Of a stretch of DNA of 64,000 nucleotides, positions 12,707 to 62,944 are shown in pieces. Position 1 is the first letter of the stretch, and each line of letters opens with the position of its first letter. Under the pieces are notes generated by a model, which was not told where the DNA came from, did not search any database, and was given only the letters and a program-made list of their open reading frames with translations. The stretch is from contig NZ_QKYK01000002.1 of the NCBI RefSeq assembly GCF_003426815.1, positions 310,001-374,000 of the forward strand, written 5' to 3'. Source of the DNA: Desertimonas flava. Its GTDB lineage: Bacteria; Actinomycetota; Acidimicrobiia; Acidimicrobiales; Ilumatobacteraceae. Both the position numbers and the translations under genes were made by a program.

Positions 12707-12790
12707 ACGCCGTGCTGTCTCGCGTCACTCCGTGACGCCGTGCCGTCTCGCGTCACTCCGTGACGCCGTGCTGTCTCGCGTCACTCCGTG
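12707..12790. repeat. three tandem 28-bp repeats with internal hairpins
   Basis: Copies lie at 12707-12734, 12735-12762 and 12763-12790, nearly identical and followed by the first six bases of a fourth. Each contains CGTCAC-TCC-GTGACG, a six-pair hairpin. The third copy covers the stop and last codons of the ACT gene (LGVTE), so the repeats look like duplications of that 3' end. They separate convergent genes and may act as stacked terminators. Confidence 0.85.
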
Positions 12791-13161
12791 ACGCCGAGGG
12801 CCGCGCGCAGGGCGGGGAGATCGGGAGAGCCGAAGACGACGCGGGTGTGCGTGGCGAGGTAGAGCAGATCGAGGTTCACGCCGGCCGCGGCGACCGTGCG
12901 GGCGAGGTCGGCCAGGGCGCCGGGACGGTCGTCGGTCTCGACGACGACGACCTCCCGTTCGGCGGTGACGGCGATGCCAGCGGTCGCCAGCGCGTGCTTG
13001 GCGGCTTCGGCGTGTTTGACCAGCACGTGCAGCTCGGCGCTCTCGCCGGGACGCGTGCACGTGGCCGCGGCGAGGTTCACCCCGGCATCGCTGACGGCGG
13101 CCGCGACCCGGGCCAACGCCCCGGGCTCGTTGGCCACCCTGATCAACAGGTCGCTTGCCAT
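12781..13161 (-). CDS. double ACT-domain protein
   Basis: This 126-residue soluble protein is made of two ACT modules, residues 4-60 (LLIRVANEPGALARVAAAVSDAGVNL) and 68-126 (VVVVETDDRPGALADLARTVAAAGVNL). ACT domains bind amino acids or similar small ligands and regulate enzymes or transcription. No catalytic or DNA-binding part is present, so this is a stand-alone sensor of unknown partner. GACAAT on the coding strand five bases before ATG 13161 is a possible leaderless promoter. Its last five codons lie in the downstream tandem repeat, and a strong hairpin (13179-13210) precedes it. Confidence 0.85.
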   Translation of the reverse strand: MASDLLIRVANEPGALARVAAAVSDAGVNLAAATCTRPGESAELHVLVKHAEAAKHALATAGIAVTAEREVVVVETDDRPGALADLARTVAAAGVNLDLLYLATHTRVVFGSPDLPALRAALGVTE

Positions 13162-16118: not shown

Positions 16119-16882
16119 ATCCCGGCGTCCGCCCGGTCTCGTGACGCCACGGTGGCCTGCTCGGGGGCGACCTCACCATCGGCGGGTTCGCCCCATGGCA
16201 CCTCCAGGCCGATGCCGCGTGCCCACAGGGTGGTGAGTGTCCGCGCCGCCCGGGTCGTGTCGATCGTGCCGATCATCGTCACGCTGATGAAGGCGTACTG
16301 GCCGACCATGATGGCGAGGGCGAGGGCCGTGTCGTCGACGTCGAGGCCGGGATCGATCCGTCCCTCAGCCTGCAACCGGCGCAGGGCCGTACCGATGCGC
16401 GCGACGACGCTCATCGTCGTCTTGCGCCGCGCCGCGCGCATCTTGGCGTCGAACGACGAGACTTCGTCCATCAACCGCAGGGTCTTGCGATTGGCGACGT
16501 AGAACTCGAGATAGCGCTGATTGGCCAGCTCGATCGTGCGCACGGGGTCACCGCCGGCATCGGCCACGACGCCCGATGTACTGCCGAGGATGTGCGTGTG
16601 GAGCGCCTCGGCGAGGGCCCAGAGCACGGCCTCCTTGTCGGCGAAGTACGTGTAGTAGGTGCCGTGGGAGACGTTCGCCCGTGCCGCGATGTCGGCGACG
16701 CGCGTCGAGAGGTAGCCCCGCTCCCAGAACTCCTCCTGGGCCGCAGCGAGCAGCAGCTGTCGGGTGCGCTCGCCCCTGCCGGTACGGGGTGTGCGCATCG
16801 TGCCGGCCGCGTGCGGCTCCGCGGGCGCGGGCGTGAGCCTGAGCGGCCTGTTGGGCGCCTCACCCGCCCCGTCCCGAACCAT
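16112..16882 (-). CDS. TetR-family regulator
   Basis: This 256-residue regulator has a short basic leader and then the TetR DNA-binding domain (about 40-85, RQLLLAAAQEEFWERGYLSTRVADIAARANVSHGTYYTYFADKEAV). An all-helical ligand domain follows, with AIMVGQYAFISVTMIG near 210. Two adjacent ATGs exist; I prefer 16882 because TACGAT lies six bases upstream (16889-16894), while 16885 would leave three. A later ATG at 16798 is also possible. Its 3' end overlaps the convergent acyl-CoA dehydrogenase gene by seven bases. A role in acyl-CoA metabolism is plausible from position only. Confidence 0.85.
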   Translation of the reverse strand: MVRDGAGEAPNRPLRLTPAPAEPHAAGTMRTPRTGRGERTRQLLLAAAQEEFWERGYLSTRVADIAARANVSHGTYYTYFADKEAVLWALAEALHTHILGSTSGVVADAGGDPVRTIELANQRYLEFYVANRKTLRLMDEVSSFDAKMRAARRKTTMSVVARIGTALRRLQAEGRIDPGLDVDDTALALAIMVGQYAFISVTMIGTIDTTRAARTLTTLWARGIGLEVPWGEPADGEVAPEQATVASRDRADAGIQ

Positions 16883-49505: not shown

Positions 49506-49617
49506 CTCGTCTCCTGGCGATGGCCCGGGTGTGGGCGTCCGCTCATCGTGATCACACGTCGGGCCCGACTTCAAGGGGCGAACGCGGCCCCGGACCCGCT
49601 CTGTGACACCCCTTCGC

Positions 49618-49623
49618 CATAAT
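49618..49623 (+). promoter_or_regulatory. -10 hexamer (CATAAT) of the recCBD operon
   Basis: CATAAT, close to the ideal -10, ends seven bases before a GTG at 49631 that opens a seven-codon frame, not recC itself. The transcript would start on that GTG. A perfect palindrome, GTCGGGCCCGAC, lies upstream at 49558-49569. Confidence 0.5.
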
Positions 49624-49630
49624 CGGAGCC

Positions 49631-49654
49631 GTGGAATCGAGCGAGCAGCGGTGA
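49631..49654 (+). CDS. leaderless heptapeptide frame coupled to recC
   Basis: GTG 49631 follows the CATAAT hexamer by seven bases and encodes MESSEQR, ending at TGA 49652-49654. That TGA overlaps the recC GTG (GTGA at 49651-49654). recC has no good ribosome site, so ribosomes loading on the leaderless 5' end could finish this frame and re-initiate on recC. This is an inference from geometry; the peptide itself need not have a role. Confidence 0.4.
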   Translation: MESSEQR

Positions 49655-52600
49655 CGCTGTACGTGCACCAGGGCAACCACCTGGAGGTGCTGGCCGACGG
49701 GCTGGCCGCCGTGTTCGCCCAGCCGCTCGACGATCCGTTCCGGTCCGAGGTCGTGGCCGTGCCCACGGCCGGGGTCCGGGACTACCTCGTCCGACGCCTG
49801 GCCCGTCGCCTGGGCGTGTCGGCCAACACCGAGATGCTCTTTCCCGGTCGCTTCGTCGCCCGGGTGCTCGGTCGGTCCGCCGAGGCAGACGACCCGTGGC
49901 ACATCGATCAGCTCACCTGGACCGTGCTCGGGCTGCTCGAAGACGGAGTCGTCGAGGTGCCCGGCTGGGTGGCGGCCACGACCCGTGGCCATTCGCGACG
50001 CGTCGCCGTGGCCCGGCGCATCGCCGACCTCTTCGACGGCTACGGCGCCAATCGCCCGCAGGTGTTGCAGCAGTGGGCGGCGGGCGCCCCGGGCGACGGG
50101 ACTGTGCGGGACGACGGCCTGGTCGGCGGTCTCGACCACGACGTCGAGTGGCAGTTCCATCTCTGGCGGGCGGTTCGCGAGCGGATCGGCACCCCCAGCC
50201 CGGCCGAGGAGCTCCCCGCGGCGATGGCCGCCCTGCGGGCCGACCACGACCGGAGCGACCTGCCCTCGCGAGTGGCCTGGCTCGGCTTGGCCAGCGTCGC
50301 CCCGGCGCGGATCGAGCTGCTCGATGCCCTCGCCACCCAGCGCGACGTCCACCTGTTCGTCATGCGACCCTCGGGTGCTCAGTGGGACCGAGCCGAGCGC
50401 GTCCCGGCCGGTCGCCCCACCCCGCGCCGGCGTGCCGACGAGGACACCACGCCCGACCTCGATCGCAACCCGCTGCTGCGGTCATGGGGCCGAGCGACCG
50501 CCGAGATGGCGGCATTGCTCACCGGCGCTGGCCAGCCGGTGCCGCCGGTCGATCGCCCCCGCACGGCGACGACGCTGTTGGCGGCCGTGCAGGCCGATAT
50601 CGCCGCCGATCGGGCGCCGGCGCCGGCCGGCGTGGGGATCGACCGGTCGCTCCAGGTGCACGCCTGCCACGGGGTCACGCGCCAGCTCGAGGTGCTGCGC
50701 GACGCCATCGCCCATCTGCTGGCCGCCGACCCAACACTGCAGCCGCACGACGTCGTCGTCCTCTGCCCCGATCTCGCCCGCTTCGAACCGTTCGCCGCCG
50801 CCGTGTTCTCGCGCGGCAGCCTGCCCGTCCCACTCACCGTCACCGATCTCTCGCTCGGCAGCGAGAACCCGGTGGCGGCGGCGTTGGCCCAGATCCTGCG
50901 TGTCGTCGCCGGACGATGCACCGCCGTCGACCTGCTCGACATCGCCACGCTGGAACCCGTCCGCCAACGTCTCGGCCTGGACATCGACGACATCGACCGC
51001 ATCACCGGATGGATCGAACGGCTGGGCACGTCGTGGGGCGTCGACGCTGACCAGCGCCTGGAGTGGCTCGGCGACGATGCATCCGCGCCACGAGGTGTTG
51101 CGTCGCGCGACGCACTCACCGCCGGTACGTGGGAGGCCACCTTGCGGGCGCTGTTGAGCGGCGTCGCCATGCCGTCGCCCAGCCCGCGGGTGGTCGCCCT
51201 CGACGGCGTCGAGGTCGTGCCCTTCGACGACATGGGCGCCGACGCCGCGGCAACGGCCGGCCGCCTGGCCGAGCTCGTCGCTCGCCTGCGTCACGTGCGG
51301 CACCTCGTCGCCACGCCGCGCCCCGTCGCCGGCTGGTGCGACGTGTTCGTCGAGGCGCTCGCCCTCACGTGCGCGACCGACCGCAACGACGCCTGGCAGG
51401 CCGCCGCCGTCATGGCTGCCATCGACGACCTCCGCCGCTCCGCCCAGGGCACGGCGGGGGAGGCCGTCGAGCTCGAGGCGTCCGACGCCCGCACCCTGCT
51501 CGACGGCATCGTCGATGCCCACCACGGCCGCCTCCGTCTGCGCACGGGCGGGGTCACGATGTGCGGGTTGGCGCCGATGCGCAACGTCCCGGCCCGCGTT
51601 GTGTGCGTCCTCGGGTTCGACGAGGCCAGCCTGCGCCCGCCCGGCATCGACGGTGACGATCTGCTGGGCCGCCGGCCGTGCGTGGGCGAACCCGACCGTC
51701 GCGGCGAGCGGCGCCAGTTCGTACTCGACGCCCTCCTCGCCGCCGACGATCACTTCATCGTCGTCTGCGACGGCAGCGACATCACCACCAACCGCACGGT
51801 GCGCTTCGCCGTGCAGCTCAACGAGCTCCTCGACACCGCCGACGCGACGCTCGGCGTTGTCACCGGCGGGGACGCCGACTCGCCGGTGGTCGTACGGCAC
51901 CCGCTGCGCAGCTACGACGAGGCGAACTTCGCGAGCGGTCGGGCCGGCCTCGGGCCGTCGGCCGCCGCCGGCGCCCCGTTCGGCTTCGACTCGGCGATGC
52001 GGCACGCGGCCATCGTCCGCCGGACGGCCGACGACGTCGGCACCGGGTCGCTCCTCGACCGCTGGAACATCGGCGCCGAGCCCGTGCCCGACGTCGTGCG
52101 TCTTGCTCACCTCGTCCACTCGGTGTCACGCCCGGCCCGCACCCTGCTTCGTGACCGCCTCGACCTGCGATTGCCTGTCGAGGTCAGCGAGCTCGACACC
52201 CGCATCCCGCTGTCGGTCACCCCGCTCGAGGCGGCGAGCATGGGACGCCGCCTGCTCGACGAACTGCGGCGAGCGGCTCCCGCCGACGCCGATGCCGAGG
52301 TGGCCGTCCTGGCCGAGTGGCGGCGGTCGGAATCGCTCAACGGTCGACTCCCGCCCGGACGGCTCGTCGATCAGTCCCTCGACGCGGTCCAGCGCCAGGT
52401 CATCGCGGTCGTCGACGCCGCCACCGAGCAGCTCGGCGGCATCGACCGGGCTGCCCTGCTGGCCGCCCCCGACTCGGTGGAGGTCGACCTGACGCTCCCG
52501 GTCGGGGCCACCGTCCTGCCGGCGTTGCCACCGCTGTCGGTGCGGCTGGTCGACACGCTCGCCCACATCGTGCACACCGACCGCTTCGGATCCGTGGTGT

Positions 52601-53115
52601 GCCGCCTCAGCTACACCCGGGCCCGAACCCGTACGCATCTCGAGGCGGCGATCCACCTCGCCGCCGCGGTGGCCGCCACCGGACGGACCGACTGGTTCGC
52701 CGTCAGCGCCACGCGCGGATCGAGTGGCGTCAAGGCGGCGGTCAGCGTGCTCGGCGTCACCGGCCAGGGCGACGAAGGAATCGCCGACGCCCGCCGCCTC
52801 CTCGCCGCCGCTGCCGAGATCCACCTCGCGGCCCGGCGCAGCGCCATCCCGCTCTTCGAGGAGACGTCCCGGGTGCTCCACGAGACCGGCACCCTGCAGG
52901 AGGAGCCGTTCCGCGGTAACGATCAGTACAACAAGCGCGCTGATCTCGCCGACATCGACACCGCGTTCATCTGGGACAGCGTGCCCATCGCCGACATCCT
53001 GGCCATGCATCCGTCTCCGCAGGTCTATGCCGATCTCCTCTGGAATGCCGTCGACGACTTCGTGTTCGACTGGAGCGCCGCCAATGCGGCGAGCACCCGG
53101 AAGGGATCGCGCTGA
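49651..53115 (+). CDS. recC: exodeoxyribonuclease V gamma subunit
   Basis: This 1154-residue RecC is the scaffold and recombination-hotspot-scanning subunit of RecBCD. It processes double-strand ends for RecA. The N-terminal HQGNHLEVLADGLAAVF...DPFRSEVVAVPTAGVRDYLVRRLARRLGVSANTEMLFPGRFVARVLG is the standard opening (a helicase-like domain that has lost ATP-binding motifs). PHDVVVLCPDLARFEPFAAAVF, RFAVQLNELLD and a C-terminal nuclease-like, DYK-less domain follow. GTG 49651 is chosen because it gives the family N-terminus and overlaps the stop of a tiny upstream frame. The stop shares one base with the recB ATG (TGATG), giving tight coupling. Confidence 0.93.
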   Translation: MTLYVHQGNHLEVLADGLAAVFAQPLDDPFRSEVVAVPTAGVRDYLVRRLARRLGVSANTEMLFPGRFVARVLGRSAEADDPWHIDQLTWTVLGLLEDGVVEVPGWVAATTRGHSRRVAVARRIADLFDGYGANRPQVLQQWAAGAPGDGTVRDDGLVGGLDHDVEWQFHLWRAVRERIGTPSPAEELPAAMAALRADHDRSDLPSRVAWLGLASVAPARIELLDALATQRDVHLFVMRPSGAQWDRAERVPAGRPTPRRRADEDTTPDLDRNPLLRSWGRATAEMAALLTGAGQPVPPVDRPRTATTLLAAVQADIAADRAPAPAGVGIDRSLQVHACHGVTRQLEVLRDAIAHLLAADPTLQPHDVVVLCPDLARFEPFAAAVFSRGSLPVPLTVTDLSLGSENPVAAALAQILRVVAGRCTAVDLLDIATLEPVRQRLGLDIDDIDRITGWIERLGTSWGVDADQRLEWLGDDASAPRGVASRDALTAGTWEATLRALLSGVAMPSPSPRVVALDGVEVVPFDDMGADAAATAGRLAELVARLRHVRHLVATPRPVAGWCDVFVEALALTCATDRNDAWQAAAVMAAIDDLRRSAQGTAGEAVELEASDARTLLDGIVDAHHGRLRLRTGGVTMCGLAPMRNVPARVVCVLGFDEASLRPPGIDGDDLLGRRPCVGEPDRRGERRQFVLDALLAADDHFIVVCDGSDITTNRTVRFAVQLNELLDTADATLGVVTGGDADSPVVVRHPLRSYDEANFASGRAGLGPSAAAGAPFGFDSAMRHAAIVRRTADDVGTGSLLDRWNIGAEPVPDVVRLAHLVHSVSRPARTLLRDRLDLRLPVEVSELDTRIPLSVTPLEAASMGRRLLDELRRAAPADADAEVAVLAEWRRSESLNGRLPPGRLVDQSLDAVQRQVIAVVDAATEQLGGIDRAALLAAPDSVEVDLTLPVGATVLPALPPLSVRLVDTLAHIVHTDRFGSVVCRLSYTRARTRTHLEAAIHLAAAVAATGRTDWFAVSATRGSSGVKAAVSVLGVTGQGDEGIADARRLLAAAAEIHLAARRSAIPLFEETSRVLHETGTLQEEPFRGNDQYNKRADLADIDTAFIWDSVPIADILAMHPSPQVYADLLWNAVDDFVFDWSAANAASTRKGSR

Positions 53116-56100
53116 TGGCCCGCGCCACCGCTCGGCCGGCGGCGTTCGACCTCGCCGGTCCGCTTCCGCGCGGCCGCACCGTCGTGGAGGCCAGCGCGGG
53201 TACCGGCAAGACGTACACGATCTCGGCGCTGATCGCCCGCTACGTCGCCGGCGAGACGAGTGGCGCCGGCCACGACCTCACCGCCGGGTTCGGCATCGAC
53301 CAGATCCTCGTCGTCACGTTCACCAGAGCGGCCGCCGCCGAGCTGCGAGACCGCATCCGCCAGAAGCTCCAGGCCGCCGCCGACTTCCTCGAGGGCGGTC
53401 CGCTGCCGGCCACCGACCCGTGGATGGCGGTGTTCGACGAGGGCTCGCCACGCCTCCGGCACCGCCGAGCGCTGCGGCTGCGCGACGCCCTGCACCGCTT
53501 CGACGAGGCCGTCATCACCACCATCCACGGCTTCTGCCAGCAGGCGCTCGCCCAGGCCGGGCTGCGCGCCGCCGGCGACCCGGGCGCCCAGCTCGTCGAG
53601 AACGATCACGACGTGGTCGCCGAGGTCTGCCGCGATCTGCTGGTACGCGAACTGGCCGACGATCCGTTCCGGCTGTCGGTCGACGAGAAGGGCCGGCCGA
53701 TCGAGTGGGTCGACGGCAAGGTGAAGCAGGCGGACGTGGCCAATCGGCAACCCCACGGTCCCGAGAAGGTCGAGCGGGACGTCATCGCCGCCGTCCGGAC
53801 CGTGCTCACCAACGCCGGCGCCACCACCATTCCCGATCCGTCGATCGGCGGCGTCGCCGGGCGGTGGGCGGCGATCATCCACGAGGCGGTGACCGCGATC
53901 GGCCGGCGCCAGCGCCAGCGCAGAGAGATCGGCTACGACCGGCTCGTCTCCGATCTTCGGGACGCGCTCGCCGACCCCGTGGTCGGCCCGCCCCTCGCCG
54001 AGCAGCTCGGCAGCCGGTTCCCCATCGTGCTCGTCGACGAGTTCCAGGACACCGATCGCGTGCAGTGGGAGATCTTCCAGCGGGCGTTCGGCGACCGGCG
54101 TCTCATCACCGTCGGCGATCCGAAGCAGGCGATCTACCGGTTCCGCGGCGCCGACGTGCACGCCTATCTCGACGCCGTGCGGACGGTCGACGCATCGAGC
54201 CTGGCCGTCAATCACCGCTCCGACCGCCGCCTGCTCGACGGCTTGGCCGTGCTGTTCAACGGTGCCACACTCGGGCACGATCAGATCGCCGTCCATCGGG
54301 TCGACGCCGCGCCCTCGGCGCAGCGTTCCGCCGTCGCCGAGCCCGGCCGCGATCGTGGTCTCCGGGCCTCCATCCACATCCATGCCGTCGCCGACACCGA
54401 CGCCGTGGCCCACACCAGCAAAGGGCACCTCGAGTCGGGGGCCGTGCAGCGCCTCGTCCTCGCCGACGTGGCGTCGCGGGTGCGCAGCCTGCTCGACGGC
54501 GCCACCATCACCATCGCCGGGCCCGACGGAACGAGCCAGTCCCGGCCGGTGCGGCCCGGCGACATCGCCGTGCTCGTTCCGTCGCAGCGCCGGGCTGCCG
54601 ACACGGCGGCGACGTTGCGCGAGTGGGGCATCCCCACCGTGCGGTCGCGCACCGGGTCGGTGCTCGAATCCGAAGCGGCGCTGCAATGGCGCCTGCTGCT
54701 CGCCGGTCTCGCCACGCCCACCCGGGCCCGGGTGGCTCGGGCTGCCGGCCTGAGCTGGTTCTTCGATCTCGACCCGGCCGCCCTCGCCGACGTCGATCGT
54801 ACGCTCGGTGTGGAGTCGGGCCCGGGCGGCGACGTCGGCGACACGCCGCTCGCCGCGCTGCAGCGCCACCTCGCCACGCTGGCCCACCGGCTCCGCACCG
54901 ACGGCCTCGGCGCCTTCTACGAACAGTTGCGCACCGAGTCGAAGCTGTTCGACGTCGTGCTCGGCGCGCCGAACGGCGACCGCAATCTCGCCGATCTCGA
55001 CCACGTCGCCGACCTGCTGGTCGGCGAGCTGCGCGGCCAGACGCACGAGCCGCTGCACGTGCAGCAGACCCTCGACCGCCTCATCGCCGACGCCGAGACC
55101 GAGGGGCCGTCCGAGGCCACCATGCGACGCATCGAGACCGACGATCACGCCGTGCACATCACCACCATCCACTCCGCCAAGGGGCTCGAGTACCCGATCG
55201 TGCTGATGCCGTTCGCCTACGTCGAGCGGCCCAACACGCAGCGCCCGTACGTGTTCAACGCCGTCGATGGAACGTCGCCCGACGGATCGGGGAACGGCGG
55301 GGTCGGCAGCGGAGGGTCGGCGATCCGGTACGTCGACGTGGCGTCGTGGGTGGCGTGGGTGGACGGGTTCGACGAGGGCAGCAAGCCCGGCGACACTGCC
55401 GCCAAGGTGCGCGCCGCAGCGGCCAAGGCCGACGTCGACGGCGATGGCTTGCGCACCGTCTACGTGGCGATGACCCGGGCCCGTCACCGCCTCGAGCTCT
55501 GGTGGGCGCCGACGATGCGTTCGGCCACGTCGCCGTTCGGACGGCTGCTGCTCGACCGCGAGGGTGCCGGTCCGGTGCAGAACTCGCCGGTCGACCACGA
55601 GTACACCAAGCGTGGTGGCGCGGCGGCCCGCGAACAGATCGACGTGCTGGCCGCGGCGTCCAACGGCACGATCGCCGCCTTCGACGTGCCGGTCGATGTG
55701 CCGATCCGCCGGCCGCTGGCGATGGGAGGACCCGAGCGCGAGGAGCTCCTCGTGGCCGACGACGGCGGCCGTCATCCGCTCGCCAACCCCACCTGGCGGT
55801 CGTGGTCGTTCACCGCGGTCACCGCGGCAGCGGCCGGCCACGAACGGACGCCGGACACGGCGGGCCCGGTCGGTGGCGCGGACGAGCCGGCCGATCCGGC
55901 CGACGGTGAGGTGCCGATGCCTCCCACCACGCCGTCGGGCGCCGAGGCCGCCCCCGCGCCAGAGCGAGCAGCCGTGTCGGTTCCGCTCGCCGACGTGGTG
56001 GGTGGCACGACGTTCGGCACGATGGTCCACGAGATCTTCGAGCAGCTCGACTTCACCGATCCGGCGCTGCCGAGCAAGGCGCGGCGACTCGCCGAGGACG

Positions 56101-56783
56101 GGGCCCGGGCGGCCGGTCTCACGCTCGACGCCGCTGCCGTCGCCGCCGGGATCAGCGCGGCGGTGGCCACCCCGCTCGGTCCGCTGTTCGACGGCCGGGC
56201 ACTCTCGTCCATCTCCCCGCCCGACCGTCTCGCCGAGCTGACCTTCGATCTCGAACTGCCGCGGCTCGTTCCCGCGGCCCGCATCGGCGAGGTGCTCACC
56301 TCCACCCTCGCCGACGACGACCGGCTGCGGCCCTACGGCGCCGAGCTGGCCGCCGCCCTCGACCCGGTGTCGATCACCGGCTGGCTCACCGGGTCGATCG
56401 ATGCCGTGTTCCGCGTGGCTGAGGACCACTTCGTGGTCGTCGACTACAAGACCAATCGCCTGCATGCGCCGGGCACCACCGACCCCGGCGAGGTGCTGGC
56501 GCCGTACCGGCCGGACCGTCTCGTCGACGCCATGACCCACAGCCACTATCCGCTCCAGGCGCTGCTCTACAGCGTGGCCCTCCACCGCTACCTCTCCTGG
56601 CGGCTCGGCCCGGCCTACGACCCTGAACGCAACCTCGGCGGCATCGCCTACCTCTTCGTTCGAGGCATGGTGGGTCCGGCCACGCCGACACTCGACGGTG
56701 AGTCCCACGGCGTGTTCTCCTGGCGGCCCCCGGTGGCCACCGTGCTCGCCCTCGACGACCTGCTCGGCGGAGCTGAGCGATGA
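53115..56783 (+). CDS. recB: exodeoxyribonuclease V beta subunit
   Basis: This 1222-residue RecB is the 3'-5' SF1 helicase and nuclease of RecBCD. Motifs in order are Walker A VVEASAGTGKTYTI (about 24), motif Ia VVTFTRAAAAELRDRIRQKL, TIHGFCQQAL, motif II IVLVDEFQDTDRVQWEIF, motif III LITVGDPKQAIYRFRGADV, NHRSDRRLLD, IHSAKGLEYPIVLMPF and motif VI YVAMTRARHRLELWW. The C-terminal nuclease domain has TFGTMVHEIFEQLDF and the catalytic FVVVDYKTNRL. The last residues LLGGAER are echoed in two tiny frames between recB and recD. The stop TGA (56781-56783) overlaps an ATG (56780), the first step of an ATGA chain to recD. Confidence 0.96.
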   Translation: MARATARPAAFDLAGPLPRGRTVVEASAGTGKTYTISALIARYVAGETSGAGHDLTAGFGIDQILVVTFTRAAAAELRDRIRQKLQAAADFLEGGPLPATDPWMAVFDEGSPRLRHRRALRLRDALHRFDEAVITTIHGFCQQALAQAGLRAAGDPGAQLVENDHDVVAEVCRDLLVRELADDPFRLSVDEKGRPIEWVDGKVKQADVANRQPHGPEKVERDVIAAVRTVLTNAGATTIPDPSIGGVAGRWAAIIHEAVTAIGRRQRQRREIGYDRLVSDLRDALADPVVGPPLAEQLGSRFPIVLVDEFQDTDRVQWEIFQRAFGDRRLITVGDPKQAIYRFRGADVHAYLDAVRTVDASSLAVNHRSDRRLLDGLAVLFNGATLGHDQIAVHRVDAAPSAQRSAVAEPGRDRGLRASIHIHAVADTDAVAHTSKGHLESGAVQRLVLADVASRVRSLLDGATITIAGPDGTSQSRPVRPGDIAVLVPSQRRAADTAATLREWGIPTVRSRTGSVLESEAALQWRLLLAGLATPTRARVARAAGLSWFFDLDPAALADVDRTLGVESGPGGDVGDTPLAALQRHLATLAHRLRTDGLGAFYEQLRTESKLFDVVLGAPNGDRNLADLDHVADLLVGELRGQTHEPLHVQQTLDRLIADAETEGPSEATMRRIETDDHAVHITTIHSAKGLEYPIVLMPFAYVERPNTQRPYVFNAVDGTSPDGSGNGGVGSGGSAIRYVDVASWVAWVDGFDEGSKPGDTAAKVRAAAAKADVDGDGLRTVYVAMTRARHRLELWWAPTMRSATSPFGRLLLDREGAGPVQNSPVDHEYTKRGGAAAREQIDVLAAASNGTIAAFDVPVDVPIRRPLAMGGPEREELLVADDGGRHPLANPTWRSWSFTAVTAAAAGHERTPDTAGPVGGADEPADPADGEVPMPPTTPSGAEAAPAPERAAVSVPLADVVGGTTFGTMVHEIFEQLDFTDPALPSKARRLAEDGARAAGLTLDAAAVAAGISAAVATPLGPLFDGRALSSISPPDRLAELTFDLELPRLVPAARIGEVLTSTLADDDRLRPYGAELAAALDPVSITGWLTGSIDAVFRVAEDHFVVVDYKTNRLHAPGTTDPGEVLAPYRPDRLVDAMTHSHYPLQALLYSVALHRYLSWRLGPAYDPERNLGGIAYLFVRGMVGPATPTLDGESHGVFSWRPPVATVLALDDLLGGAER

Positions 56784-56809
56784 GCAACCTCGGCGGAGCT
56801 GAGCGATGA
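56780..56809 (+). CDS. nine-residue linker frame 1 between recB and recD
   Basis: ATG 56780 overlaps the recB TGA. The frame encodes MSNLGGAER, and its TGA overlaps the ATG of the next frame at 56806. It was produced by tandem duplication of the junction. Its C-terminal LGGAER copies the RecB end. It may serve only to pass ribosomes along. Confidence 0.5.
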   Translation: MSNLGGAER

Positions 56810-56835
56810 GCGGCCTCGGCGGAGCCGAGCGATGA
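56806..56835 (+). CDS. nine-residue linker frame 2 between recB and recD
   Basis: ATG 56806 overlaps the preceding TGA. The frame encodes MSGLGGAER, and its TGA (56833-56835) overlaps the recD ATG at 56832. It is the second coupled nonapeptide in the chain and has no sequence feature beyond the repeated RecB tail. Confidence 0.5.
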   Translation: MSGLGGAER

Positions 56836-58655
56836 GCGCGGTGTTCGTGCCGGCCGACGCCGCGGCCCTGCGCGGGTTCGCCGCAGCTGGGGTGCTCGGC
56901 TCCACGGAGGTGCATGGTGCGGCGGCTCTCGTACCCGGAGCCGACGACGACGTGCTGGTGGCCACCGCTCTGGCGCTGTGGGCGCCCCGCCACGGACACG
57001 CCTACGTCGACCTCACCACCGCTGCCGAAGACGTGGTCGCGGCAGTCGCCCGGGCCGGCACCGACGACCGGGGCGACGCCCAGGCGCTGCGCGCTGCGGC
57101 GCTCGACTCGCTCGTCTGGCCCGATCCCGCACGGTGGGCCGAGCGGCTCGCCGGCAGCCCGTTCGTGCGTACCGTGGGGGACCACGAGGCGTCGCCGCCG
57201 CTCGACGACCGGCCGCTCGTGCTCGCCGGCACCCACCTCTACACCCAACGCCAGTGGGTCGACGAGTGTGTCGTCGCCACCGCCCTGCGGCGCATGGCCG
57301 TCGGCGTCGAACCGCTCCCCGCGGCTCCGCTCGCCGACCTGCTCGATCCGGCCGGCGACCAGTACGCCGCGGCGGCGACGGCGCTCGAGCGCCGGCTGGC
57401 CGTCATCGTCGGCGGTCCCGGCACGGGCAAGACCTACACCGTCGGGCGCCTGCTCGCTGCCTTGCACGCCGGATGGCCGGGCAGCGAGGCCCCGCGTCTC
57501 GGCCTGGCCGCACCCACCGGCAAGGCCGCCGCCCGCCTCACCGAGTCGATCCAACAGGCGCTGGGATCCGACGACGACCGGCCGTCCGTCCCCGACGCCG
57601 TCACCGTGCATCGCCTGCTCGGTCCCCTTCCCGACTCCCGCACCCGATTCCGGCACCACGCCGGCAACCCGATGCCCTACGACGTGGTCGTCGTCGACGA
57701 GACGTCGATGGTGCCGCTGCCCCTCATGGCGCGACTGGTCGACGCCGTCGCCGACGGCTGCCGCCTCGTGCTGCTCGGCGATCCCGACCAGCTCGAGAGC
57801 ATCGAGGTCGGCGCCGTGCTCGGCGACATCGTCCGGGCGGCTGCCGATCCGGCCTCGCCGCTGCACGGCTGCGTCACCCGCCTGCGCCGGCAGTTCCGCA
57901 CCGGGCAGGACTCACCGATCGGTCCGCTGGCCGACGCGGTGCGTGATCAGCACCCCGACGACGTTCTGTCGCTCCTTCGTGCGCACGCGGCCGATCCCGA
58001 GTCGCCGGTCTCGTTCGTCGAGATCGACGACGCCGTCGACCCGGCCCCGGCCGCGGCCGACGCCGTCCGTGCGGTCGTGGCCCCGGCGTTCGCCGACGCG
58101 CACCGGGCGGCGGCCGCCGGCGAACGCGACGCGGCGCTCGCCGCGCTCGACCCGGTCCGCATCCTGTGCGCGCACCGCCGCGGCCCATTCGGCGTGGAGA
58201 CGTGGAACGACCACGCCGAGCGGTGGCTGTTCGAGCGGCCGCCCTCGGTGCGCGACTACGTGGGCCGCCCGCTGCTCGCCACGCGCAACGACCCGCGCAC
58301 CGGCATCGTCAACGGCGCCACGGGGATCGTCGTCGCCGGCGCCGGGAGGCTGCCCCGTGCCGTGTTCCGACGCGGCGGCGAGACGGTCGACTTCGCCCCG
58401 GCCGAGCTCGACGAGTTGGAGACCGCCTACGCCATGACCGTGCACAAGACACAGGGGTCGGAGTACGACGCGGTCGTGCTCATCCACCCGCCGGCCGACT
58501 CACCGCTGGCCGGCCGCGAGCTCCTGTACACGGCCATCACGCGGTCGTCGCGCCGGCTCGTGGTGGTGGCGTCGGCGGCGGCGATCCGCCGGGCCGTCAC
58601 CAACCCGGCCCGCCGCCTCACCGGGCTCAGCGAGGCCCTCGCCGCTCCCCGCTGA
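56832..58655 (+). CDS. recD: exodeoxyribonuclease V alpha subunit
   Basis: This 607-residue RecD is the 5'-3' SF1B helicase of RecBCD. An N-terminal RecC-binding domain (1-150) is followed by Walker A VIVGGPGTGKTYTVGRLL (about 196) and LGLAAPTGKAAARLTESI. The rest of the core comprises motif II YDVVVVDETSMVPLPLMARLV, motif III RLVLLGDPDQLESIEVGAVLGDI, RLRRQFR, AMTVHKTQGSEYDAVVLI and ELLYTAITRSSRRLVVVAS. The gene is the last of recC-recB-recD. Its translation probably depends on the ATGA relay through the two nonapeptide frames. A strong repeat-hairpin follows its stop. Confidence 0.95.
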   Translation: MSAVFVPADAAALRGFAAAGVLGSTEVHGAAALVPGADDDVLVATALALWAPRHGHAYVDLTTAAEDVVAAVARAGTDDRGDAQALRAAALDSLVWPDPARWAERLAGSPFVRTVGDHEASPPLDDRPLVLAGTHLYTQRQWVDECVVATALRRMAVGVEPLPAAPLADLLDPAGDQYAAAATALERRLAVIVGGPGTGKTYTVGRLLAALHAGWPGSEAPRLGLAAPTGKAAARLTESIQQALGSDDDRPSVPDAVTVHRLLGPLPDSRTRFRHHAGNPMPYDVVVVDETSMVPLPLMARLVDAVADGCRLVLLGDPDQLESIEVGAVLGDIVRAAADPASPLHGCVTRLRRQFRTGQDSPIGPLADAVRDQHPDDVLSLLRAHAADPESPVSFVEIDDAVDPAPAAADAVRAVVAPAFADAHRAAAAGERDAALAALDPVRILCAHRRGPFGVETWNDHAERWLFERPPSVRDYVGRPLLATRNDPRTGIVNGATGIVVAGAGRLPRAVFRRGGETVDFAPAELDELETAYAMTVHKTQGSEYDAVVLIHPPADSPLAGRELLYTAITRSSRRLVVVASAAAIRRAVTNPARRLTGLSEALAAPR

Positions 58656-58761: not shown

Positions 58762-61680
58762 TCAGCGGACGAGGGTGGAGCCGCCGCTCGGCAGCTTGCG
58801 CACCTCGATGCCCACGGGGAGCTGGCGTTTCATCGTCTCCACGTGGGTGATGACGCCGACCATGCGGCCGGTGGCGTGGAGCCCGACCAGCGCGTCGACC
58901 GCCTCGTCGAGGGCGTCGGCGTCGAGTGACCCGAAGCCCTCGTCGACGAACAACGCCTCGTGGACATCGCCGCTCTGACTGACGACGTCGGCGAGTCCGA
59001 GCGCCAGGGCCAGCGCAGCCTGGAACTGCTCACCACCCGACAGCGTGCTGGGCGGGCGGGGACGGCCAGTGTCGGCGTCGTCCACCACCAGATCGAGCCC
59101 ACTGCGGCGGGCCCCGACCCCACTCGGCTCGTCGCGCCGCAGCGAGTACCGGTGCCGGGTCATGCGGGCGAGGTGCACGTTGGCGGCCGCCGTCACCCGG
59201 TCGAGCTCGCCGGCGAGCACCCACGTCTCGAGCTGGACTCGCGTGAGGTTGTTGCCGTTGAGCGTCTCGAACACCACCCGCGCCGTGTCGTAGGCGGCGA
59301 CGGCATCGGCCGACGCGCCCTCGAGGCGCTCGGCGCTGGTGAGCGCCACCGACGCGTCGGAGAAGCGGACGTCGAGCACCTGGAGCCGGCCGGCCGCCGC
59401 CTCGGCGGCGGCGCGGGACTGGGCCCGTGCCTTCGCCAGCACCTCGACGTCGGGCCGCTCGTCGGGGATGGCGACCTCGTCGAGGGCGGCCAGGCGGGAC
59501 GAGACGTCGGCCACCGACGCCCGCCACGCCTCGATCCGGGCGGTGAGGCGGGCCAGCTCGTCGGCAGCCATCGCCACGGCGAGGGCCTCGGAGGCGTCGG
59601 CGAAGCCGCTCGCCGCCACCGCGTCGGCGAGGAGCGTGGCGGCCTGCGCGGCGGCGCCACGGGCGCTGGCAGCAGCCTGGGCGAGCGGCTCGAGCCGCGA
59701 CACTGCCCGTTCGGCACGTCGTACCAGGTCGAGCCGATTCTCGATGTCGACCGCGGCGACCTCGCCGGCGCGGGCTCGTAGCTCGGCGGCCGCCTCGCGC
59801 TTGGCGGCGTGCTCGGCCACCGCAGTGGCGTGGCGGCCGGTGAGGGCCGGCAACCGCTCGGTGGCCTCGGCGAGCTCCTTGTCCACTCGGGCCAGGGCGA
59901 GGTCGAGGCGGACCACCGCGGCCTCGGCATCGGCGGCCAGGCGGTGTGCGGCGAGCGCCGCCTCGTGGCGCTGGCGCAGCACCTCGATGTCGGTGGCCCG
60001 CTGCGGTCCGAGGCGCCGCAGGTGGTCGTCGATGCGGGCGAGCACGTCGTGCAGCGCACGGGTGGCCTCGTCGCGCCGGTGCTTGGCCCGGGCGAGGTCG
60101 TCACGGGTGACCGCGGTGCTCGGGTGGGCGGATGCCGGTGCCGGATGCTCGGGGCTGCCGCAGACGGGACACGGGTCGCCAGGGGTCAGGCGGGCGGCGA
60201 GCTCGGGGGCGACGTCGGCGAGGAACTGCGACGTGAGCCGGTCGAGGGTGGCGTCGGCATCGGCCTCGGCCGTGCGGGCGATCTCGGCGTGCGAGGCGAA
60301 CTCACCGACCTCGGCCTTGAGCGTGAGGACCTCGGCGGTCGCGGCCACCTCGGCCGCGCACCGATCGATCCCGCTGGCGACGGCGAAGCGCTCGATCCGT
60401 TCCGTCTCGAGCGGGCCGCGGCGAGCCTCGAGGTCGGTGACGAGGCGACGGCCGTGCTCGAGGGCGTTGGCGGCCCCCGCTTCGACCGCGGCGAGACGGT
60501 GCGTGGCCGCCTCGGCCTCGGCCGCCGCCTTCACGACGGCGAGCTGGTCGCCCAGCACCGAACGCAGATCGGCCAGCCGGGTGGGCGCCCCGGCCAGTGG
60601 CTCGGCCTCGATCCCCGCGGCGACGATGGCGTCGACGGCCACCGCCTGGGCCCGCTCGAGCGCCTCGGTGGCGTCGCGGTGTGAGGCGTCGGCGGCGACG
60701 TTGGCGCGGTGGGCGGCGACAACCGGCGCGGCCCGTTCGCCGCACCGGCCGCGCTCGGCGTCGGCGTGCATCGTGGCGGCGTCGGCCTGCAGCGTGGCCA
60801 GGCGGCGACGCAGTTCCGCTCGGCGATCCCAGTCGGTGGCCACGGCGATGGCCGCCGTGTGGACGTCGCGTGCCGCCTCGGCGGCGGCCGCCGCGGCGAC
60901 GGCTGCCGTGCGGCGATCGTCGATGTGCGGCGCGAGATCGTCGAGTTGCCGCCGCAGTCCGGCCAGGTCGCCGGCGACGGCCGGAACATCGTCGTCGTCG
61001 TGGAGCGCGCCGAGCAGTTCGGCCACCGCCGCGGTGGCGTTGGCCCGGTGACGCTCGACCTCGCCTCGGGTGGCGTCGACTGTCTCGCGAGCGGCGGCGA
61101 CGCGGTCACGCGCCAGCAGCGTGGCCCGCTCGTAGAGCTGGGTGCCGAACAGGTTCTGCAGCAGGGTGCGCCGCGAGGCCGTGTCGGACATGAGGAACTC
61201 GGCCCACTTGCCCTGGGGGAGCAGGACGACGCGCTGGAACTGGGCGGCGGTGAGCCCGACGAGTTGCTCGCAGCGGGCATTGACCTCCTGGGGCCGGCTG
61301 GCGATGGGTTCGAGCGTGTCGCCGACGACGCGGTAGAGGGCGGCCTTGGGCTGCTCGACGGTGGTGCCCCGGCCGCGCTGCTTGGGGCGCTCGTGGCGGG
61401 CCGTGCGCTCGACGCGGAAGCGTCCGGCCGCGGTGTCGAAGGTGAGCGCAGCGGTGGTGCGGGTGTGACGGTCGGCGTGGTGGGAGCGGACGTGCTCGAG
61501 CCGTTCGCCGGGGATGGTGCCGAAGAGGGCGAACGTCATGGCGTCGAACAGCGTCGACTTGCCGGCGCCGGTGGGGCCGCACACGACGAACAGGCCGTGC
61601 TCGGCCAACGGGGCGAAGTCGACCACCTCGGTGCCGGCGTAGGACCCGAACGCCTGGAGCTCGAGCTCGACGGGCCTCAT
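58762..61680 (-). CDS. sbcC: SbcC, Rad50-like ATPase of the SbcCD nuclease
   Basis: This 972-residue SMC/Rad50-type ATPase forms with SbcD the complex that opens hairpins and trims blocked DNA ends. Walker A is CGPTGAGKSTLFDAM (about 33-47). AQFQRVVLLPQGKWAEFLMSD follows, then a long Ala-rich coiled coil interrupted by the zinc hook DPCPVCGS near the middle, and a second coiled coil. The C-terminal signature is LSGGEQFQAALALALGLADVV, with Walker B EALFVDEGFGSLD. ATG 61680 gives the usual MRPVELELQAFGSYAG start. It lies ten bases after the sbcD stop, and convergent recD is separated by a terminator. Confidence 0.95.
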   Translation of the reverse strand: MRPVELELQAFGSYAGTEVVDFAPLAEHGLFVVCGPTGAGKSTLFDAMTFALFGTIPGERLEHVRSHHADRHTRTTAALTFDTAAGRFRVERTARHERPKQRGRGTTVEQPKAALYRVVGDTLEPIASRPQEVNARCEQLVGLTAAQFQRVVLLPQGKWAEFLMSDTASRRTLLQNLFGTQLYERATLLARDRVAAARETVDATRGEVERHRANATAAVAELLGALHDDDDVPAVAGDLAGLRRQLDDLAPHIDDRRTAAVAAAAAAEAARDVHTAAIAVATDWDRRAELRRRLATLQADAATMHADAERGRCGERAAPVVAAHRANVAADASHRDATEALERAQAVAVDAIVAAGIEAEPLAGAPTRLADLRSVLGDQLAVVKAAAEAEAATHRLAAVEAGAANALEHGRRLVTDLEARRGPLETERIERFAVASGIDRCAAEVAATAEVLTLKAEVGEFASHAEIARTAEADADATLDRLTSQFLADVAPELAARLTPGDPCPVCGSPEHPAPASAHPSTAVTRDDLARAKHRRDEATRALHDVLARIDDHLRRLGPQRATDIEVLRQRHEAALAAHRLAADAEAAVVRLDLALARVDKELAEATERLPALTGRHATAVAEHAAKREAAAELRARAGEVAAVDIENRLDLVRRAERAVSRLEPLAQAAASARGAAAQAATLLADAVAASGFADASEALAVAMAADELARLTARIEAWRASVADVSSRLAALDEVAIPDERPDVEVLAKARAQSRAAAEAAAGRLQVLDVRFSDASVALTSAERLEGASADAVAAYDTARVVFETLNGNNLTRVQLETWVLAGELDRVTAAANVHLARMTRHRYSLRRDEPSGVGARRSGLDLVVDDADTGRPRPPSTLSGGEQFQAALALALGLADVVSQSGDVHEALFVDEGFGSLDADALDEAVDALVGLHATGRMVGVITHVETMKRQLPVGIEVRKLPSGGSTLVR

Positions 61681-61690
61681 GACACGCGGC

Positions 61691-62944
61691 TCACGGAGTG
61701 GCCTCGGCGAGGGCGGCGTCGAGCAGTTCGTGCAGCATCTCGCGCTCGGCGTGGGTGGGCGGACGATTGGTGACGTCGGACCAGAACGAGGTGGCCGCAT
61801 CGAGCGGCGACAGGCGCGAGCGTGCCGCGGCCGGCGCGGGGTCGGCGACGGTGTCGGGACCGGCGGGCGGTTGCAGGACGATCTCGGTGACGAAGCGATA
61901 GCGGTGCAGGAGCCGGGCCTTGGCGTCGAGGACGTGGCTGGGGTCGGTGAGTACCGCCCGGACGAAGTGGTGTTCGGCGTGGGCGTGGCGGGGGGACATC
62001 AGCAGGTCGTCGATCGTGCCCGTGAGGGTGACGACCGGCCGGCCGACGGGCACCGGGATCTCCGTGGTGGTGCACCGGCCGGTGGGGTCGACGTCGACGA
62101 TGACGACGTGCTTGGCGTGCGTCTCGGAGAACGAGTAGGGCAGGGGGGAGCCGCAGTAGCGGCGGGTGGGATCGGCGCCGACGAGTTGCGGGCGGTGCAG
62201 GTGGCCGAGGGCGACGTACGAGAAGCCGTCGAACGTGGTGGTGGCGACCCGTGGTGAGGTGCCGACGGCCAGCGCGCGCTCGGAGTCGGACTCGATGGCC
62301 CCGGCGACGAAGGCGTGGGCGACGGCCACCGACCGTGGCGCGCCGACCCGGCGGTGGAGGGCCGCCTTCAACACCGTCTGGTGGGTGGGGCGCCTCGGGG
62401 CGTCGTCGGGGTCCGGTTCGTCCCGTGTGGCGGCGGCCGAGACCCCGAGGTCGAAGGCCAGCTGGGCCGGGGCATCGTGGTCGGGCAGTAGCGGGAGGTC
62501 GGGCGCCCGACGGCGGTGGACCGGTTGGTTCGGGGCCATCACGGGGTCGAGGTAGGGCACGGCGACGACGTCGAGCGGACCGTCGGAGAACTCCAGCGTG
62601 ACGGTCTCGCCGGCGCGGGCGAAGCCGCCGCGGATGATGACACCGGCGGCGTCGGTGAGGCCGTCGGCGGCGGCCACGCGGTCGGGGCTGTCGTGATTGC
62701 CGGCGATGGCGACCACCTTGGCGCCGGCGCCGACGATGCCGGTGAGGGCGTGGCGCAACAGGTTGACCGACTCGGTGGGCGGGATGGCGCGGTCGTAGAG
62801 GTCGCCGGCGACGACGACGAGATCGATGGATTCCTGGCCGACGACATCGACGAGCCAGTCGACGAACGCGGCCTGATCGGCCGCCAACGACACCTGGCCG
62901 AAACTGCGGCCCAGATGCCAGTCGCTGGTGTGCAACATCCTCAC
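61691..62944 (-). CDS. sbcD: SbcD, Mre11-like nuclease of SbcCD
   Basis: This 417-residue metallophosphoesterase is the nuclease partner of SbcC. Metal-binding motifs are HTSDWHLGRSFG (about 5-16), VVVAGDLYDRAIPP, AIAGNHDSPDR and YVALGHLHRPQ. A capping domain and C-terminal SbcC-binding helices follow. A Pro/Asp-rich insert near 190 (DEPDPDDAPRRPTH) is longer than usual. GTG 62944 restores the family start MRMLHTSDWHLG and has TAGGGT seven bases upstream, so a leaderless operon start is likely. Confidence 0.95.
   Translation of the reverse strand: MRMLHTSDWHLGRSFGQVSLAADQAAFVDWLVDVVGQESIDLVVVAGDLYDRAIPPTESVNLLRHALTGIVGAGAKVVAIAGNHDSPDRVAAADGLTDAAGVIIRGGFARAGETVTLEFSDGPLDVVAVPYLDPVMAPNQPVHRRRAPDLPLLPDHDAPAQLAFDLGVSAAATRDEPDPDDAPRRPTHQTVLKAALHRRVGAPRSVAVAHAFVAGAIESDSERALAVGTSPRVATTTFDGFSYVALGHLHRPQLVGADPTRRYCGSPLPYSFSETHAKHVVIVDVDPTGRCTTTEIPVPVGRPVVTLTGTIDDLLMSPRHAHAEHHFVRAVLTDPSHVLDAKARLLHRYRFVTEIVLQPPAGPDTVADPAPAAARSRLSPLDAATSFWSDVTNRPPTHAEREMLHELLDAALAEATP

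Follow-up and report, generated by a model that had tools for sequence, protein, structure and literature searches.

Introduction

Translational coupling by termination-reinitiation (TeRe) at native overlapping gene pairs needs a start codon within a few nucleotides of the upstream stop, and the upstream gene's final 15 nt are enough for it; in E. coli a gap of +14 nt costs 40-80% of the coupling and a gap of +38 nt nearly all (PMC10666635). Coupling efficiency and the contribution of the Shine-Dalgarno (SD) motif differ by gene pair, 100% coupling is not required, and SD removal usually reduces reinitiation and seldom abolishes it (PMC6728339). The recB and recD genes of E. coli overlap by 1 nt, and an engineered fusion of RecB with RecD has activity (PMC2586629). 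Here we analyse a 64,000-nt stretch of the Desertimonas flava genome (contig NZ_QKYK01000002.1, positions 310,001 to 374,000; the window), in which the recB-recD junction is triplicated and two minigenes stand between the two genes.

In mycobacteria, mycobacterial interspersed repetitive units (MIRUs) insert short open reading frames (ORFs) coupled by -4 overlaps (PMC12548453, PMC4213456), an insertion thought to affect expression minimally (PMC12548453). The tandem MIRUs at senX3-regX3 comprise three 77-bp units in H37Rv, and two 77-bp units and one 53-bp unit in CDC1551 (PMC4213456). The statement of the initial annotation that no such minigene relay has been described fails against these elements (PMC12548453, PMC4213456). 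In both cases a repeat carries a short ORF that is -4-coupled to its neighbours (here MSNLGGAER and MSGLGGAER), and both form tandem arrays, which on the MIRU side differ between strains in the type of unit (PMC4213456). The MIRU lengths of 77 and 53 bp are also 3n+2, as is the 26-bp length of the unit described here. MIRUs, however, are dispersed, apparently mobile and longer, whereas the 26-bp unit is native recB sequence and occurs at one site. Being native recB sequence confined to a single site, the array appears not to be a MIRU, although it would work like one.

Ordinary TeRe at ATGA resembles the D. flava locus in the stop/start motif, the SD motif within the upstream gene and the coupling of subunits of one complex (PMC6728339, PMC10666635). 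It usually involves one junction, whereas three lie in series here, with two minigenes. The short leader ORF of iraD is likewise coupled in translation to the gene behind it; ORFs of that type precede the first gene, whereas the minigenes here are intra-operonic and derived from the junction itself (PMC5574718).

The triplicated recB-recD junction

A 26-bp unit containing the stop/start overlap occurs three times, head-to-tail, at 56763-56840 (78 bp in total; all coordinates at this locus refer to the plus strand), as the initial annotation had reported. Unit 1 (56763-56788) is the native 3' end of recB with its stop/start ATGA. Unit 2 (56789-56814) is 92% identical to it. Unit 3 (56815-56840), which contains the recD start, is 85% identical to unit 1 over 26 nt and matches it at 22/23 positions in the core. 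This 23-nt core, CTCGGCGGAGCYGAGCGATGAGC, is common to the units with one T/C as its sole variation. The 3-nt spacers after the core vary, reading AAC, GGC and then recD's own GCG.

The recB gene (53115-56783) ends inside unit 1 with ..LGGAER and a stop, its last letters being CGATGA. Minigene 1 (56780-56809, ATG at 56780) encodes MSNLGGAER and shares 4 nt with each of its neighbours, recB and minigene 2; minigene 2 (56806-56835, ATG at 56806) encodes MSGLGGAER and overlaps minigene 1 and recD (56832-58655) in the same way. Both minigenes also emerge from the chain search. Three 4-nt ATGA stop/start overlaps are therefore arranged in series from recB to recD, and the order of the four products reads exactly as first claimed. 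One feature was absent from the initial annotation: the three -1 shifts sum to -3 and thereby return recD to the frame of recB, and the sole stop between them is the recB TGA. The distance from the recB stop to the recD start is +48 nt.

At all three junctions the SD motif lies within the preceding ORF, near the next start. The GGAG motifs of units 1, 2 and 3 (56769-56772, 56795-56798 and 56821-56824) are each placed 7 nt 5' of an ATG, at 56780, 56806 and 56832 respectively, and the third is recD's own ribosome site. The initial annotation had proposed that a ribosome must make three terminate-reinitiate moves to reach recD. Since every unit, including unit 3, has its GGAG 7 nt before an ATG, these moves are not obligatory, and the lower RecD dose expected from them is possible only.

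The array is not a chance arrangement, because a pattern of two units with at most 3 mismatches matches the real sequence twice and none of 100 shuffles, and no other unit match exists in the 6.2-Mb genome. At the same threshold the whole genome contains exactly three unit matches, all in the array, and the reversed control gives 0. Each unit is predicted to be able to form a 6-bp hairpin covering part of its GGAG. The RNA folding of the array (z -0.26) does not surpass that of shuffles and lends no support to a special RNA switch. A consensus scan detected no promoter or terminator inside the junction, which is weak evidence in an actinobacterium.

The first array spacer lies in a 13-nt exact match, GCAACCTCGGCGG, between 56784-56796 and the recB NLGG codons at 56629-56641. 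The triplet AAC precedes CTCGGCGG at just 7/1271 sites in 2.45 Mb of the genome. Because of this rarity, the AAC spacer may have arisen by a template switch.

Ancestry and recurrence of the expanded junction

To place the array among its relatives, we use 147 distinct recB-recD junctions at which both genes are readable, the one in the window included. A direct -4 overlap is found at 122/147 of them and a -1 overlap at 3/147. The nearest relatives examined (same family, with RecD identities of ~50-55%) have a single junction each; the search for relatives yielded no further genome of the genus Desertimonas. Because 122/147 junctions and the nearest relatives show a single overlap, the single -4 overlap is taken as ancestral, and the triplication is derived.

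Independent coupled inserts at recB-recD are present in two further lineages of the same order. In a genome of another family (G100), recB ends with ..LDRGSV and is followed by a minigene encoding MSDNRRSV and by recD, joined by two ATGA overlaps. The two junction copies lie 23 bp apart and match at 17/20 nt, indicating local duplication, and a congener (G120) has a plain GTGA junction without duplication. In a third family (G077, locus L285), a 60-codon ORF with GTGA at both ends stands between recB and recD. This insert measures 182 bp and holds a repeat seen at ~14 further places of the G077 genome.

The steps at recB-recD, 26, 26, 23 and 182 bp, are all 3n+2. If the phase were free, the chance of this in three independent events would be 1/27, a value based on small numbers. 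Our relay test detects coupled inserts only, and uncoupled inserts in the order would appear in the class "other", which at this junction holds small deviations only (L025, L276). Two further apparent relays were rejected as spurious: one (L047) needs a TTG start despite an upstream ATG in the recD frame, and the other (L066) consists of repetitive AT-rich sequence that offers no start near the recB stop. The inserts in G100 and G077 and the shared 3n+2 phase at recB-recD are new here, as is a second tripled junction in D. flava, between ABC permease-like genes.

Related junctions and repeats in the D. flava genome

The junctions of D. flava were surveyed in 2.45 of its 6.2 Mb with a simple self-made gene caller, and the counts are approximate. 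A distance of -4 nt is the commonest between same-strand genes (301/1285 pairs); the SD form seen most often at these -4 pairs is GGAG at 7 nt. Links through mini-ORFs are frequent if GTG and TTG starts are allowed (67/798 same-strand pairs with gaps of 0-199 nt). Linkage by a minigene is therefore unremarkable in itself; the repeated unit and its recurrence are what is remarkable.

The second tripled ATGA junction is located at ~463.4 kb of contig C1 (L180, minus strand, 16440-16640), between two genes that were judged ABC permease-like from their sequence, without a profile. Its steps measure 29 and 30 bp. The first produces a minigene encoding MSSTDRADAR, and the second an in-frame extension before the second permease.

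A separate dispersed element with the end CGGCCTGCGTGGCCGGGGAACGCARTGA (RTGA) occurs at 76 places in the genome and looks like an actinobacterial counterpart of the MIRUs. It often supplies the start of the next gene, and its ends often, though not always, fall at gene starts. Four copies in 29-bp steps at C46:3608-3722 form RTGA-linked minigenes encoding MTGLRGRGTQ, the last ATG being out of frame with the likely gene. Two copies 29 bp apart precede a ferredoxin-like gene (C12:189008-189064), and two copies 92 bp apart precede a transporter-like gene (C16:77810-77929).

The window also contains a short array at 12707-12796, with a 28-bp unit present 3.2 times at 96% matches, mostly outside called genes. 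An unusually repeat-prone genome is ruled out by the tandem-repeat density, which at 58.8 per Mb is near the 56.9 per Mb of GC-rich loci of other species.

Interpretation of the triplication

We consider it likely, with a probability of roughly 0.6, that slippage duplicated a self-sufficient coupling cassette and that the copies survive since coupling was kept. On this view, short tandem duplication enlarged a native TeRe junction. Coupling needs the end of an upstream ORF with GGAG and an overlapping stop/start ATGA. The 26-bp unit holds both, and it can be regarded as self-sufficient because 15 nt from the end of the upstream gene are enough (PMC10666635). A ribosome restarted at ATGA would enter the next copy in the frame of recB and halt at the copied TGA. 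Since 26 is 3n+2, each extra copy yields a coupled 9-codon ORF and leaves neither a gap nor an altered RecD N-terminus; a copy of 3n would lengthen the RecD N-terminus, and one of 3n+1 would be read in the third frame. Ribosomes leaving recB would traverse the minigenes, or initiate afresh at one of the three equivalent GGAG-ATG sites, which would keep recD translated. Without the minigenes direct recB-recD coupling should be lost, because the gap is +48 nt and +38 nt already nearly abolishes coupling (PMC10666635). The minigenes thus most likely bridge the gap passively, each GGAG also allowing some ribosomes to initiate de novo, and the copies would persist since coupling is unbroken. The dose of RecD may change, though probably by a modest amount.

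Several observations weigh against this interpretation. Simple duplication of the flank does not account for the two changed 3-nt spacers, and the argument from phase comes from few independent events. In the ABC-permease array, the second of the two steps, at 30 bp, departs from 3n+2. Two minigenes could still lower RecD, in which case the presumed near-neutrality of the copies would fail.

It is possible, though we think it improbable, that the relay sets the dose: ribosomes would be lost at each step, RecD would be held well below RecB, and a change in copy number would act as an evolvable switch between RecBCD and a RecBC-like state. The anatomy permits this, coupling varies in efficiency and can stay below 100% (PMC6728339), and the junction is expanded in three lineages. 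However, unit 3 gives recD a GGAG ribosome site of its own, and outside this genome the array is not conserved, so nothing points to selection for a count of three. The same ribosome site in unit 3 could instead mean that the duplication is inert, with minigenes that are not meaningfully translated and a recD that starts de novo at the unit 3 GGAG-ATG, uncoupled from recB. Direct coupling across +48 nt is indeed not expected (PMC10666635). We find this doubtful, as units 1 and 2 share the site and start context and should be used too, and the clear inserts at this junction in the order have all retained both -4 overlaps.

Insertion of a MIRU-like mobile repeat at the junction is very unlikely. 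The coupled architecture is alike, the genome has the RTGA-ended element at its 76 places, and in G077 a dispersed repeat does lie at recB-recD; but the 26-bp unit is found only at this site and consists of sequence from the recB 3' end, which makes it a local duplication. Even less probable is a reading in which the return to the recB frame matters and readthrough of the TGA yields some RecB-16aa-RecD fusion. The frame is open from the recB TGA to recD, and given that the engineered E. coli RecBD fusion is active (PMC2586629), some fusion product would be tolerable. No readthrough signal was found, though no test was aimed at one, and a two-copy intermediate would not share the property. An assembly or sequencing artefact is the least credible explanation, because an ordinary short read exceeds the 78-bp array in length and the copies bear distinguishing bases; similar arrays also occur elsewhere in the genome.

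The passive bridge suggests a simple tolerance rule, by which 3n+2-bp tandem copies spanning ATGA become coupled minigenes and the downstream gene is still served. It also connects insertions of the MIRU type to duplications that arise locally at native junctions, and junctions present once, twice or three times offer a natural series for measuring the loss per reinitiation step. More speculatively, and in our view with rather low odds, coupled junctions may evolve through gain and loss of 3n+2-bp duplicates of the coupling cassette they carry. Slippage would then drive a graded rheostat, made of minigene chains, that adjusts the ratio between subunits (RecD to RecB in this case) and that would recur at recB-recD in several lineages. 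Should the number of units affect RecD, the array would be a heritable tuning knob of a central repair enzyme.

The surrounding locus

The gene order recC-recB-recD of RecBCD is backed by NCBIfam profiles, with the curated cut-off passed by recD only. The RecD ORF (exonuclease V alpha subunit), whose N-terminus reads MSAVFV.., scores 431.7 bits with TIGR01447 (cut-off 310.15). The scores of the other two ORFs are strong though below their curated cut-offs: recB (exonuclease V beta subunit) matches TIGR00609 with an E-value of 4.8e-165, and recC (49603-53115, plus strand) matches TIGR01450 with 8e-155. The recC stop and the recB ATG share 1 nt. On the minus strand, SbcC-like and SbcD-like ORFs (58762-61800 and 61691-62944) adjoin recD; as listed they share ~110 bp, and the true SbcC start is probably further in.
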